From Cellulomonas terrae (GTDB lineage: Bacteria; Actinomycetota; Actinomycetes; Actinomycetales; Cellulomonadaceae), in assembly GCF_007990265.1 (NCBI RefSeq), contig NZ_BJWH01000015.1:1-64000 (forward strand): a DNA stretch of 64,000 nucleotides, given 5' to 3'. The position numbers and the translations under genes were made by a program. Shown here in pieces: positions 10,091-14,119 of the stretch. Within the stretch, counting starts at the first letter, position 1. Each line of letters starts with the position of its first letter. Under the pieces are notes generated by a model. That model was not told the origin of the DNA and did not search any database. It was given only the letters and a program-made list of their open reading frames with translations.

Positions 10091-11233
10091 ATGGCGAAGC
10101 TCACCCGCCTCCCCGCCGACGACCCCGGTCTGCGTGACCGCCACATCCTCGCGCTCCCCGCGGACGTCGCGGCCGACGAGGTCGAGGTGCTCGCCGTCAG
10201 CCGGTTCGCCAACGCCCGCTGGGAGGAGGCGCCGCAGGACACGCTGCAGCCGCGCGGGATCATCGGGCCGATGACCGCCGCGCTCGGTATCCGCTCCGTC
10301 GGCTCCGCGACCATCCCGACCCGCACGCTCCGGCTCGCGCGCCTCTCGACGCTGAACGGGCCGTTCCGCATGGAGACGGTCGACGCCGTCAGCCTCGGGC
10401 TGCCGACGACGTCCACCCTCGCGTACGTGCTGGTCTGCCCACGGGAACGCGGCGAGAAGCCGTACCCGGGCGGTGACCGCGACGGGCTCAAGCGCGCGTT
10501 CCCCGACGGCATGCCGATCCGCGAGGAGGAGCGCGTCCTGCAGTGGATGGTCGCCGCCGCGCGCCGCCTCGGCGGCTCCGTGCGCACCGGCGAGAACGGC
10601 ACGGTCCTCACCCCCGACGTCGACAGCGCCATCGACCTCACCGTCCTGTCCGACTCCTGGCTCGAACCGGCCGAGGCGCTCGCCGTGGTCCAGCAGGTGC
10701 TGCCCCGCGCCCGGCTCAGCGAGGCGACCAGCACGTGGACCGGTCCCGCGCCGGGCGTCGGCCGGGACGCCACCGGGCGGCCGGGCTGGGTGGCCGAGGC
10801 CGGCGGCCGGGGGCTGTCCGCCGCGCTGGAGCGCCACGGGGTCGCCGACGAGGCCGAGCGCCGCCGGCTGATGGACGAGGCGTCCGCGTTCGACGAGCTC
10901 ATGCTCGCGGTGCCCCCGGTCCCCGAGGCGTACGGCGTGCTCGTCGACCTCGGGCACGACGGGATGCTGTCCGTCGAGGCGGGCGTCGAGACCACCCTGC
11001 CGCCCCTGATGCGCGACCTGCCGTGGACCCAGGGCGGCGTCGTCGCCTACCGCGTGCACTGGGAGCCGCCGTTCATCGAGGAGCTCGAGGCCGAGCGGCC
11101 GTCGTTCGAGCACCGCGTCGCCCGGTCCCGCGCCGCGCCGCTGGTGCAGGCCGTCGCGCGCGTGGTGCACGCCGCGATCGGAGGCGAGATCGCCGACGAG
11201 GCGGACTTTCTGGTGGACCCCGAGGACGTCTGA
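10091..11233 (+). CDS. Conserved actinobacterial protein of unknown function
   Basis: A 380-residue soluble protein that I do not recognise. It lacks a signal peptide and membrane segments. Visible features are an alpha/beta N-terminal half with RFANARWEEAPQDTLQPRG and GGDRDGLKRAFPDGMPIREEERVLQWM, a central segment SAIDLTVLSDSWLEPAEAL, and a C-terminal part ending in acidic residues. No catalytic motif stands out. It begins 4 nt after the dcd stop and is probably co-transcribed with dcd. Codon use looks native. Confidence 0.75.
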   Translation: MAKLTRLPADDPGLRDRHILALPADVAADEVEVLAVSRFANARWEEAPQDTLQPRGIIGPMTAALGIRSVGSATIPTRTLRLARLSTLNGPFRMETVDAVSLGLPTTSTLAYVLVCPRERGEKPYPGGDRDGLKRAFPDGMPIREEERVLQWMVAAARRLGGSVRTGENGTVLTPDVDSAIDLTVLSDSWLEPAEALAVVQQVLPRARLSEATSTWTGPAPGVGRDATGRPGWVAEAGGRGLSAALERHGVADEAERRRLMDEASAFDELMLAVPPVPEAYGVLVDLGHDGMLSVEAGVETTLPPLMRDLPWTQGGVVAYRVHWEPPFIEELEAERPSFEHRVARSRAAPLVQAVARVVHAAIGGEIADEADFLVDPEDV

Positions 11234-11331
11234 TCGCACTAGGCCAGACAGGTGATCCCCCCGCGCGCGGTTGCCGCGGCGAACAGGCCTTCCTACGTTC
11301 GAGGGACGCGCAGGGCCTTGGGGGCTTGACG

Positions 11332-12465
11332 ATGACGTCGCTGAAGCAGGAGACCGCCGGAGCGGGGACGTGGCTCCTCCGCGGCCTGCTCGCGCTCGCG
11401 GCCCTCGTGCTCGTCGTCCTCGTCCAAGCCGTTCTCGCGGCTCCGCCCGCGCGTGCCGATGACTCGCCGCCGCCCGCGGACGCGGTCACCGGACTGCTGA
11501 CGCCCGTGGTGTCCAGCGCGGTCGCGCCGGTGGAGCCCGTGGTGTCCGGGGTGCTCGCGCCCGCGGAGCCGATCGTGTCCGGGGTGCTCGCGCCGGTGGT
11601 GTCCGCGGTGCTCGCGCCCGTGACGCCGGTGGTCTCCGGAGTCGTGGAGCCCGTCGTGCCGGTGGTCTCGGCGGTGGTGGCGCCCGTGACGCCGGTCGTG
11701 TCCGCGGCCGCTGCGCCCGTCGCGTCCGTCGTGTCGGCGGTGGCTGCACCCGTCGCGCCGGTCGTCGACACCGTGGTCGCGCCCGTCGCTCCCGTGGTCG
11801 AGGGGGTCGTCGCGCCCGTGGCTCCCGTGGTCGCGCCCGTCGTGGACCTGGCGTCCCCGGTGCTCGACAGTGCGGCCCCGGTCGTCTCGGCCGTCGCGCC
11901 GGTGGCCTCCGCGGTCGCGCCCGTCGTCGACGCGCTGGAGCCCGTCGTCGACGCGCTGGAGCCCGTCGTCGCGCCGCTCGGCGGCGTGCTCGCCCCGGTG
12001 ACGGGCGCGCTGGGGCCGGTCGTCGGCGTGCTGCGGCGGGTCGTCGGGGTGCTCTCGCCGGTCGTCGGCGAGCCTGTCCCGGGAATCCTCCTGCCCGTCT
12101 CTCGCACGGTCGCCCCGGTCCGGGACGTCACGGACACGGTCGCGCCCCCGTCCACCAGCGGCCTCGAGCCTGACCTCGTCACTGCCGTCGTGCGCCGTGC
12201 TCCGCAGGCGAGCGTGCCCGCAGCCGACGACGCTCCCGCGGTCCCCTCGCCGACCCACCCCGCACCGACCGATCCGGCGCCGCGTGTTCCCGCCGTCCCG
12301 GTCCCCGCAGGGTCCGCCGCGAACGGTGGCCGCACGGTCGTGGATGCAGCCGTCGTCGGCGTCCCCGCCCACGCCACGGCCCCCGTCGGTCGCTGCCTGC
12401 TCGGCGGGGTCCTCGTGACGTCCTGCGCCCCGCCCGCCGCGGAGGTCCCCAGCTCGCCTGCCTGA
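11332..12465 (+). CDS. Secreted Val/Ala/Pro-repeat protein
   Basis: A 377-residue protein of extreme composition. Residues about 14-43 form a signal peptide ending ARADD. Residues about 55-240 are an imperfect 11-residue repeat of the form PVVSxVVAPVx, at least eight consecutive copies, grading into APVVDALEP and GVLxPVxG variants. The last ~130 residues are Pro/Thr/Ala-rich with two Cys near the C-terminus. I see no LPXTG or LAXTG signal. Such sequence would be extended or beta-rich, as in a cell-surface stalk or coat protein. It is co-oriented with the chaplin-like gene 76 bp downstream. The ATG at 11332 is chosen because it opens the signal peptide; there is no clear Shine-Dalgarno. Confidence 0.7.
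   Translation: MTSLKQETAGAGTWLLRGLLALAALVLVVLVQAVLAAPPARADDSPPPADAVTGLLTPVVSSAVAPVEPVVSGVLAPAEPIVSGVLAPVVSAVLAPVTPVVSGVVEPVVPVVSAVVAPVTPVVSAAAAPVASVVSAVAAPVAPVVDTVVAPVAPVVEGVVAPVAPVVAPVVDLASPVLDSAAPVVSAVAPVASAVAPVVDALEPVVDALEPVVAPLGGVLAPVTGALGPVVGVLRRVVGVLSPVVGEPVPGILLPVSRTVAPVRDVTDTVAPPSTSGLEPDLVTAVVRRAPQASVPAADDAPAVPSPTHPAPTDPAPRVPAVPVPAGSAANGGRTVVDAAVVGVPAHATAPVGRCLLGGVLVTSCAPPAAEVPSSPA
11521..12090 (+). repeat. Imperfect 33-bp coding repeats
   Basis: The DNA underlying the PVVSxVVAPVx repeat is a degenerate tandem array of about 33 bp per unit. It includes an exact 21-bp duplication (11920-11940 and 11941-11961, each encoding PVVDALE). Such a tract is prone to slippage, so copy number may vary between strains. 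Confidence 0.7.
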
Positions 12466-12541
12466 CCGGAGACCGGTCGCACCCGTGCGACACGCGTCCA
12501 CGGCCCGTCCGGGCCACCCGATCAGCAGGAGGAGCTTCGCC

Positions 12542-13567
12542 ATGCACACCTACGTCCGGCGAGCGCTGCAGACAGCACTCGTGACAGGCGGCCTCGTCGC
12601 CGCCGGGGCCTCGATGGCCCACGCAGAAGAACCCGCTCACGACCAAGCCCTGGTGACCGTCGACCTCCTGGTCGGCGGCACTGACGGCATCCTCGACCTG
12701 GCTCCGGACCGGGTCGTGCACGCACCCGTCCACGTCCCGGTCGACGTGTCGGGGGTTGCGCTCGCGGTCGGCGGGGACAGCCTCGTCCGGTCTGCGCCCG
12801 CAACCGGTCCGGCACCGGCGCCTTCGGAGGGCGGCGCGCTCGTCGAGGCGCCGATCACCGTCCCGGTCACCGTGTCCGGGGTGGCCGTCGGCATCCTCGG
12901 TGATGCAGCCGTGGTCGGGGGCGATGGTGCCTCCGGCGGGACGTCGGCTCCCACGACCTCCGACGACACGATCGTGGCGGCTCCGGTGACGGTGCCGGTG
13001 GACGTGTCCGGTGTGGCTGTGGGGGTGCTTGGCGACGCGATCGTCACCGGCTCGTCCGGTCCGGCGAGTGGCTCGCCGGGGGGTGCGGTGCCGGGTGGTC
13101 CCGACGGTGCGCTCGTCGCGGTGCCGGTGACCGCTCCGATCACCGTCGCGGACGTTGCCGTCGGCGGCGTCGGTGAGGCGGCCGTGACACCGGCGAGGTC
13201 GGTGCCGGGCACGGCGCCCGGGACCACGCCGGGCACGACGCCTGGCACCTCGCCGGGTGCACCGGTGGGTCGGGGATCGGGAACGTCGGCGGGGATCAGC
13301 GCCGTCGGTGCAGGTGCCGCGGGGGCCTCGATGGTCGCGGCCGGCGGGGCCGTGCTGGGCGCCGGTGCGACGACGGCGGCGGGCGGTGCGGTGCTCGCGG
13401 ACACGGGCTGGACGCCGTGGATCGCGTTCGCCGGGCTGTTCCTGGTCGCGCTGGGCGTGACGCTGCGGCGGACGGCGACGACCCGTCGCTCGACGAGGAG
13501 CCCGTTCACGCACCCGGCGCTCCTGGACCGGGTGCCGACGCAGCGAGGGGAGACACCGGCCCGGTGA
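12542..13567 (+). CDS. Chaplin-like LAXTG wall-anchored protein
   Basis: A 341-residue exported protein. A signal peptide (1-28, ending SMAHAEE) is followed by four repeats at residues about 59-83, 101-125, 145-169 and 191-215, each of the form APVxVPVxVSGVAVGVLGDA. These resemble the hydrophobic chaplin domain of Streptomyces but lack its two Cys. A Pro/Gly/Thr linker (GTTPGTTPGT) leads to LADTG (285-289), a membrane helix and Arg residues: a class E sortase (LAXTG) sorting signal, as in long chaplins. An unusual ~30-residue tail follows the Arg cluster. The ATG at 12542 follows AGGAGGAG. Covalent display on the wall and a role in surface hydrophobicity are inferred. Confidence 0.78.
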   Translation: MHTYVRRALQTALVTGGLVAAGASMAHAEEPAHDQALVTVDLLVGGTDGILDLAPDRVVHAPVHVPVDVSGVALAVGGDSLVRSAPATGPAPAPSEGGALVEAPITVPVTVSGVAVGILGDAAVVGGDGASGGTSAPTTSDDTIVAAPVTVPVDVSGVAVGVLGDAIVTGSSGPASGSPGGAVPGGPDGALVAVPVTAPITVADVAVGGVGEAAVTPARSVPGTAPGTTPGTTPGTSPGAPVGRGSGTSAGISAVGAGAAGASMVAAGGAVLGAGATTAAGGAVLADTGWTPWIAFAGLFLVALGVTLRRTATTRRSTRSPFTHPALLDRVPTQRGETPAR

Positions 13568-13651
13568 GGACGCCGCCGCCGGGTCCGTGGGGAGGTCGCG
13601 GGGGATCGCTCCGCGGGCCCGGGCGGCGGTGACCGGACTAGGGTCGCCTGC

Positions 13652-14119
13652 GTGACAGCGGCAACCCGGACGAGCGCCGGCCTTCTGGTCTTCCGCCGGA
13701 CCGCCGGGCTCGAGGTGCTGCTCGGGCACATGGGCGGCCCGTTCTGGGCGCGCAAGGACGCGGGTGCGTGGACGATCCCGAAGGGCGAGCCGTCGCCCGG
13801 CGAGGACCCGTACGCCACCGCGCTGCGGGAGTTCGCGGAGGAGATCGGGATGCCGGCGCCGTCGTCGGACCCGATCCCGCTCGGCGCCGTGCGGCAGAGC
13901 GGCGGCAAGGTCGTCACCGCGTGGGCGCTGGAGGGGGACCTCGACGCGTCCGCGATCGCGAGCAACCTGGTCGAGATCGCCTGGCCGCCGCGGTCGGGGC
14001 GGACGTTGCTGGTGCCGGAGCTCGACCGGGCGGGGTGGTTCGCGCCCGACGAGGCGCGCAGGCTCGTCGTGACCGCGCAGGCGGCCTTCGTGGACCGACT
14101 TGAGGAAGCGCTCGCCTGA
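13652..14119 (+). CDS. Nudix hydrolase
   Basis: A 155-residue NUDIX protein. The Nudix box is complete: a Gly in KGEPSPGEDPYATA followed by LREFAEEIGM, supplying the metal-binding Glu residues of REFAEE. The surrounding lines (LLVFRRTAGLEVLLGHMGGPFW, WTIPKGE) match a small NUDIX subfamily often annotated as a general NTP pyrophosphohydrolase. The GTG start at 13652 has no Shine-Dalgarno; TAGGGT lies 7 nt upstream, suggesting a leaderless transcript. It is convergent with the MBL gene at 14135. The substrate is unknown. Confidence 0.9.
   Translation: MTAATRTSAGLLVFRRTAGLEVLLGHMGGPFWARKDAGAWTIPKGEPSPGEDPYATALREFAEEIGMPAPSSDPIPLGAVRQSGGKVVTAWALEGDLDASAIASNLVEIAWPPRSGRTLLVPELDRAGWFAPDEARRLVVTAQAAFVDRLEEALA

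Follow-up and report, generated by a model that had tools for sequence, protein, structure and literature searches.

A chaplin-like wall protein of Cellulomonas terrae, its upstream companion and a candidate RNA element for translational coupling between them

In Cellulomonas terrae, the gene of a chaplin-like protein with a wall-sorting motif is preceded by the gene of a companion protein, and a structured RNA element joins the two. We consider it likely that they form a two-gene surface module in which the fold between the genes couples their translation. Both genes, the anchor motif, a sortase gene, a covarying fold and the linkage of the genes can be read directly from the DNA. According to comparative analysis the RNA fold is well supported, and it probably allows the wall protein to be made only after the companion. 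The window, that is, the whole stretch of DNA analysed, comprises 64,000 nucleotides of contig NZ_BJWH01000015.1. The two genes and all parts of the RNA element lie on its plus strand.

Results

The chaplin-like gene and its protein

The chaplin-like gene is located at 12542..13567 (ATG at 12542, end of the stop codon at 13567) and encodes 341 amino acids. Its Shine-Dalgarno sequence, AGGAGGAG, lies at 12527..12534. The protein starts with a putative signal peptide (residues 1–28, MHTYVRRALQTALVTGGLVAAGASMAHA; 12542..12625), which was recognized by eye, is a helix at residues 3–27 in the AlphaFold model and resembles the openings of related proteins. The signal peptide is followed by repeat 1 (residues 58–82, VVHAPVHVPVDVSGVALAVGGDSLV; 12713..12787), repeat 2 (residues 100–124; 12839..12913), repeat 3 (residues 144–168; 12971..13045) and repeat 4 (residues 191–215; 13112..13186), the most diverged, which scores only 1.8 bits against the canonical chaplin profile. 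The repeats are 25 amino acids each and are not in tandem, being separated by linkers of 17–22 residues. A Pro/Gly/Thr linker leads from repeat 4 to the sorting motif LADTG (residues 285–289; 13394..13408), behind which the AlphaFold model places a membrane helix (residues 292–317; 13415..13492) followed by basic residues. The mature protein contains no cysteines. A preliminary description of this DNA had listed the same reading frame, four cysteine-free repeats of about 25 residues, and a Pro/Thr linker with LADTG and a membrane helix, and our analysis confirmed each of these features.

The AlphaFold model of the whole protein is weak (mean pLDDT 58, pTM 0.43). It shows the same hairpin four times, each consisting of a 10-residue strand, a turn and a strand of 3–4 residues, and the linkers are disordered. 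The repeat strand is amphipathic: its beta-moment was equalled by 23–57 of 2000 shuffles for three repeats and by 155 of 2000 for the remaining one. The search for similar folds in the PDB gave 15 matches at E ≤ 10 and none at E ≤ 0.001, and the sequence search of the PDB with the full-length protein gave no match at E ≤ 1.

The preliminary description had read the C-terminus as a class E sortase signal and had proposed a search of the genome for this sortase and for other chaplins. The motif is indeed of the LAxTG type, and the sortase was found, but other chaplins were not. The genome contains three sortase genes: one of class E (NF033747, 237 bits against a cut-off of 160), one of class F above its cut-off and one class F-like below it. 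The features that together mark a class E substrate are all present, namely LAxTG, a membrane helix and a basic tail in the protein and a class E sortase encoded by the genome, so the protein would be attached to the wall at LADTG by this enzyme. Anchoring of long chaplins by class E sortase is described in PMC5148588. No second chaplin-like gene was found: the protein search of the genome gave one place at E ≤ 0.01, and the PF03777 search at E ≤ 1 gave two places, both inside the 12542–13567 gene and both under the cut-off. Further out, positions 10091–11233 encode a 380-amino-acid protein with no Pfam match, and positions 13652–14119 encode a protein that resembles NUDIX by eye. This gene order around the module is kept in the closest Cellulomonas relatives.

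Relationship of the repeats to chaplins

To compare the repeats with chaplins, we built an independent profile. Its 33 canonical chaplin domains come from loci that match PF03777 strongly, all in one genus, which we take to be Streptomyces. The best repeat scored 13.5 bits and the whole protein 24.5 bits, and none of 2000 shuffles attained either score in any of three kinds of shuffling. The top shuffle reached 12.0 bits, so that repeats 2 and 3 (10.9 and 10.6 bits) taken singly are below it. Three repeats were matched in near-identical register, at profile positions 9–29, 7–29 and 9–29 of 41 (13.5, 10.9 and 10.6 bits). The companion protein, serving as a natural low-complexity control, scored 4.1 bits over its whole length, compared to 24.5 for the chaplin-like protein.

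It is improbable that this likeness is only a convergence on alternating valine strands. That reading draws on the Pfam score, which is 14.8 bits (E 0.026), or 19.4 bits in the genome search, and does not reach the gathering cut-off of 21 bits. It also draws on the profile-profile comparison of the core of the four repeats, which gave 24.4 forward and 20.9 reversed; the reversed control is high because VPVxVPV is near-palindromic. However, when 72 Cellulomonas repeats were compared together with their flanks, the score was 33.0 against 20.4 reversed, and 200 column shuffles did not exceed 14.4. The similarity to chaplins was detected in this profile-profile comparison, which the preliminary description had named as a test of its reading. 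Full-length relatives also argue against convergence. Of the 22 proteins from the homologue search, which include the query itself, 15 have a PF03777 match at E ≤ 0.1, the best at 4.4e-22; P0005, P0010, P0013, P0020 and P0022 exceed the Pfam cut-off, while P0014 and P0018 gave no PF03777 match at E ≤ 0.1. Twelve of the 22 carry PF03777, and three are named chaplin proteins by a source. In addition, a profile of the 22 relatives retrieves the long chaplins of the genus that supplied the canonical domains.

Judged by profiles, the repeats are related to chaplins: homology is detectable at this level. The strict features are missing, since the protein has no GN motif where three per domain would be expected (PMC13251363), has no cysteine pair in any repeat and stays below the Pfam threshold. 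Therefore we call it chaplin-like and do not file it as a chaplin. The resemblance claimed in the preliminary description holds as profile kinship that beats shuffles, but not under the strict chaplin definition. Cysteine is present in 12 of the 107 repeats of the 22-protein set, sometimes beside cysteine-free repeats in the same protein, which suggests that, within a chaplin lineage, the disulphide has been lost. According to PMC3079736 and PMC13251363, the conserved cysteine pair is also absent from ChpE and from the second ChpB domain. PMC3079736 reports that the cysteine-free ChpE still forms amyloid, and that cysteines are dispensable for chaplin fibrils in vitro, while those of ChpH are required for aerial hyphae.

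Variation of the chaplin-like genes

The preliminary description had suggested that a wall-anchored four-repeat form in a bacterium not expected to make aerial hyphae could be a distinct surface-hydrophobicity system. The protein is no singular oddity: the protein search found relatives in 27 of 81 Cellulomonas genomes, and ChpE lacks cysteines too (PMC3079736). The profile of 22 relatives had a match in 68 of 347 genomes of the order, some of these matches covering the anchor or signal end only. Chaplin-like genes in a non-sporulating Arthrobacter were noted in 2013, according to PMC4255298.

The gene start was readable in 22 of the 27 Cellulomonas genomes, and two of these genes were incomplete before the anchor, which leaves 20 complete genes. 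All 20 end in LAxTG, and they encode 0, 3, 4, 5, 6, 7, 8 or 9 repeats. In L063 (G018, identical to C. humilata L004) and L064 (G370), the signal peptide and the LADTG anchor are in frame with no repeats between them; these copies, of 93 and 95 amino acids, keep the companion and the RNA element. Comparison of the signal and anchor parts of G018 and G370 gave 7 synonymous and 12 amino-acid-changing codon differences, with no clear sign of purifying selection on the anchor-only copies.

The companion gene

The companion gene and the RNA element were absent from the preliminary description. The companion gene, at 11332..12465, ends 76 nt before the chaplin-like gene and encodes a protein of 377 amino acids that is rich in V, P and A, contains 11-residue repeats and belongs to no known family. 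A signal peptide recognized by eye indicates that the companion may be secreted. Five companions, including that of the window, gave no Pfam or NCBIfam match at E ≤ 0.5. Homology of companions to FecR-domain proteins was set aside, since the matches were mostly low-complexity. The idea that companions in general have a membrane helix at the C-terminus was also dropped, because a membrane-like segment is present in only 19 of 65 companions. A literature search among open-licence papers found no report of such a companion or such an RNA.

To assess the linkage of the genes, we took the longest same-strand open reading frame ending within 260 bp before the gene, ignoring its tail. The sample was non-random: 75 loci among the best-ranked matches listed, of which G558, incomplete before the start, was dropped, leaving 74. 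The tail pattern [SRTAQF]P[ADG], which was defined after the tails had been inspected, ended the upstream frame at 64 of the 74 loci, that is, in 24 of 25 Cellulomonas loci, 30 of 31 loci elsewhere in the order and 10 of 18 loci of f100, a Streptosporangiaceae-like family. Within the order, a companion-type gene stood before 54 of the 56 chaplin-like genes examined. Of the ten misses, eight are f100 loci; the other two are G384, with the tail NSTA, and G516, whose start was probably assigned wrongly.

In the f100 loci L136–L145, the companion end is near-invariant, PPVVRTAADDPS[FI]SPD, and precedes multi-repeat chaplins, mostly with cysteines; the gap from companion to chaplin is 187–238 bp in nine of these ten loci. 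One f100 companion was searched against the databases and had 298 relatives. Of these, 120 were listed, and those with a name were hypothetical proteins, except one labelled 'DUF5666 domain-co'; they come from Microbispora, Planotetraspora, Streptosporangium, Nonomuraea and others. These four genera belong to the Streptosporangiaceae.

The RNA element at the junction

The RNA element extends over 12445..12544 and was delineated by a covariance model, covariation and single-sequence folds. According to the pair list, its long-range stem has a 5' arm at 12451..12465, which is formed by the final four codons and the stop codon of the companion, and a 3' arm at 12522..12536, which holds the Shine-Dalgarno sequence. 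Covariation and folding place two hairpins inside the stem, A at 12471..12498 and B at 12502..12515. Folding of the intergenic region alone gave weak z-scores (−0.9 to −2.4), because the 5' arm was left out, and this approach was rejected. The fold of the window's own sequence has a modest z-score of −1.9, and 2 of its 30 consensus pairs are non-standard. A cross-family MAFFT alignment was too poor for a consensus fold; therefore a model of one clade was built first and then extended with Infernal.

In the covariation analysis, 26 of 30 pairs vary on both sides, both with 27 elements (score 0.477 against 0.143 for shuffles, 0 of 500) and with 40 elements (0.442 against 0.142, 0 of 500), although the alignments (A7, A8) hold only model-found elements fitted to the model, which inflates these pair counts. 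Sliding the partners lowered the score to 0.03–0.09. Because the alignments were selected by and fitted to the model, single-sequence folds are the fairer check. Among 55 loci outside f100, at least 7 bases of the Shine-Dalgarno window were paired with the companion end in 52, and 49 combined this pairing with exactly two enclosed hairpins. Dinucleotide shuffles, the control for the stem, gave the pairing in 204 of 1100 cases and the pairing with two hairpins in 77 of 1100. When only the middle was shuffled and the tail and Shine-Dalgarno windows were kept fixed, 461 of 550 sequences still paired and 189 of 550 also enclosed two hairpins. Thus, the stem does not depend on the exact middle. The companion tail formed a better duplex with the Shine-Dalgarno window of its own locus than with those of all other families in only 23 of 55 loci. 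The pairing failed in G636, G639 and G519, where the start is probably misplaced; for G636 and G639, the second model later located the element at a different start.

Codon use also bears on the stem. In the final five codons of 65 companions, CCT makes up 48% of Pro codons, compared to 7% in the bodies of the genes, and TCT makes up 43% of Ser codons, compared to 6%. This enrichment points to selection at the RNA level within the coding sequence. In the f100 loci, the Shine-Dalgarno sequence is unpaired with the companion tail, and the mean duplex energy is −6.4 kcal/mol for own pairs against −15.3 kcal/mol for swapped ones. It follows that the coupling is not universal to the gene pair.

Searches for the RNA element

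The first covariance model, built from eight Cellulomonas sequences, found 27 elements at E ≤ 0.1 in 67 loci, namely the 8 training elements and 19 further ones. All were at the junction, and the top off-target match had E 0.21. With default filters and E ≤ 0.5, the second model found the junction in 38 of the 56 loci that are neither f100 nor canonical chaplin loci; it did not find the junction in any of the 14 f100 or 12 canonical chaplin loci. Among the loci that it misses are four on which it was trained (L061, L080, L102, L115). Nothing in Rfam matched the junction; within the stretches scanned, the best hits (E 7.2 and 0.31) lay elsewhere and below their gathering scores.

In the whole genomes of the order, the second model found 29 places in 28 of 347 genomes. 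Of these, 13 were new to the model and 15 are training elements; the remaining one duplicates a training element within its genome. All 29 lie between a companion-type tail and a gene that opens in the same manner. Chaplin-like repeats are encoded downstream at 23 of them (7 of the 13 new). At five further places, all new, the repeats are absent or marginal and the signal peptide is similar; the downstream genes of these loci (L168, L169, L171, L172 and L182) have TDG/SDG or other repeats, and the three that could be read to the end carry the anchors LATTG, LAATG and LPATG. The last place, also new, is L186 (G394), where the gene opening MRTNVRRAL is followed by no frame longer than 80 amino acids. 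At this locus the companion and the RNA element are present, and the short downstream frame may be broken. In a class-wide sample, the third model had a match in 11 of 394 genomes, all of the same order. These large-sample searches were strictly filtered and miss members: G310 and G051 were unmatched class-wide, yet fold.

Discussion

We suggest that the first gene yields a secreted V/P-rich companion and that the second yields a chaplin-like protein, which class E sortase would tie to the wall via LADTG. Displayed there, its four beta-hairpins, which would be short and amphipathic and have their valines on a single face, may assemble as beta structure and make the surface hydrophobic, and the companion would work together with these repeats. 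In the mRNA, the last codons and the stop codon of the first gene would be paired with the ribosome-binding site of the second around the two hairpins, so that the second gene would be shut when the first is untranslated. The initiation region of the second gene is paired with the coding end of the first, and the gap between them is beyond the range of reinitiation, as is characteristic of long-range coupling (UTNI), a mechanism described in PMC6728339. In the E. coli gene pairs tested, reinitiation was nearly lost at gaps of about 38 nt (PMC10666635). With a gap of 76 nt, measured against this limit for E. coli pairs, a mode other than reinitiation, acting over a long range, would be needed.

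Folds of this type can act on transcripts as well, by attenuation or stabilisation. The intergenic fold might then be a transcription attenuator or an element of processing or stability that sets the mRNA ratio, the pairing of the Shine-Dalgarno sequence being incidental. Two strong GC hairpins right behind the companion stop would fit this, but the terminator scan of 11000–13800 gave a single site, at 11190–11204, off the junction, and the covarying outer stem reaches beyond the hairpins to the companion codons and the Shine-Dalgarno sequence, which makes this explanation unlikely. We also find it quite unlikely that the tail SP[A/D/G] is kept mainly as a protein signal, for C-terminal recognition or as a protease site, with RNA pairing secondary. 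In favour of it, the tail is kept in 10 of 18 f100 loci, where the Shine-Dalgarno sequence does not pair with it, and a membrane-like segment lies ahead of it in the 19 companions mentioned above. However, it is just there that CCT and TCT, which are rare codons, show strong enrichment, which weakens the tail as a protein signal only, and the two sides of the stem change together. Protein and RNA causes of the conservation may coexist. As to the function of the wall protein, there is an appreciable chance, though short of even, that it acts mainly on solid substrates, for example plant fibres, as an adhesin or spacer, and not as a hydrophobic coat. The wall anchor, the variation of repeat number from 0 to 9 and the single chaplin-like gene found in the genome are in line with this, but the Pfam scan gave no substrate-binding domain, and the amphipathic hairpins suit surface activity equally well.

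Beyond the coupled surface module of C. terrae, a wider reading has, in our estimation, about an even chance of being correct. Cellulomonas and many of its relatives in the order would share a cassette composed of a secreted companion, an RNA switch made from the companion's last codons, and an exported, sortase-anchored protein with an exchangeable middle, which may consist of chaplin-like or other repeats or be missing altogether. The RNA would enforce companion-first, matched synthesis, and the companion would stand in the slot that a short chaplin occupies ahead of the long chaplin in Streptomyces-like genomes. If so, the chaplin-like surface proteins of this order rely on an unstudied partner, and a compact RNA fold encodes this dependence and explains much of the conserved C-terminus of the companion. 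This would be a clear example of RNA pairing that shapes a coding sequence. The fold would also provide a handle for surface operons with an unrecognisable payload, and the module a direct route to the role of chaplin-type proteins in bacteria not expected to make aerial hyphae.

The long chaplins ChpA–C of Streptomyces (PF03777) likewise have an export signal, repeats of the amphipathic VPVxVPVxV type and LAxTG at the C-terminus, and their genomes also encode a class E sortase. In contrast to them, the protein described here has no cysteines and no GN motif, has a shorter unit (profile positions 9–29 of 41) and four repeats rather than two, and no second chaplin-like gene was found in its genome. 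The neighbourhood differs as well: in the canonical loci, whose genus is presumably Streptomyces, a short chaplin and not the companion stands before the LAxTG-bearing long chaplin in 8 of 10 distinct loci. In L031, L033, L035, L036, L039, L042, L043 and L046, this short chaplin, with the end GLLNPAFGNTC..., lies 130–219 bp before the long one. CwpA and CwpB of Actinoplanes missouriensis are likewise hydrophobic wall proteins outside Streptomyces that depend on class E sortase, and a role like that of long chaplins has been proposed for them; the authors of PMC13251363 find that they have no chaplin domain, whereas chaplin-like repeats are recognisable here. Long-range coupling of the UTNI type resembles the junction in that the initiation region of the second gene is paired with part of the first across a gap. 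Unlike in that mechanism, the fold here is a defined one with two enclosed hairpins, the stop codon itself is paired, and the element recurs before one kind of gene across many genera.
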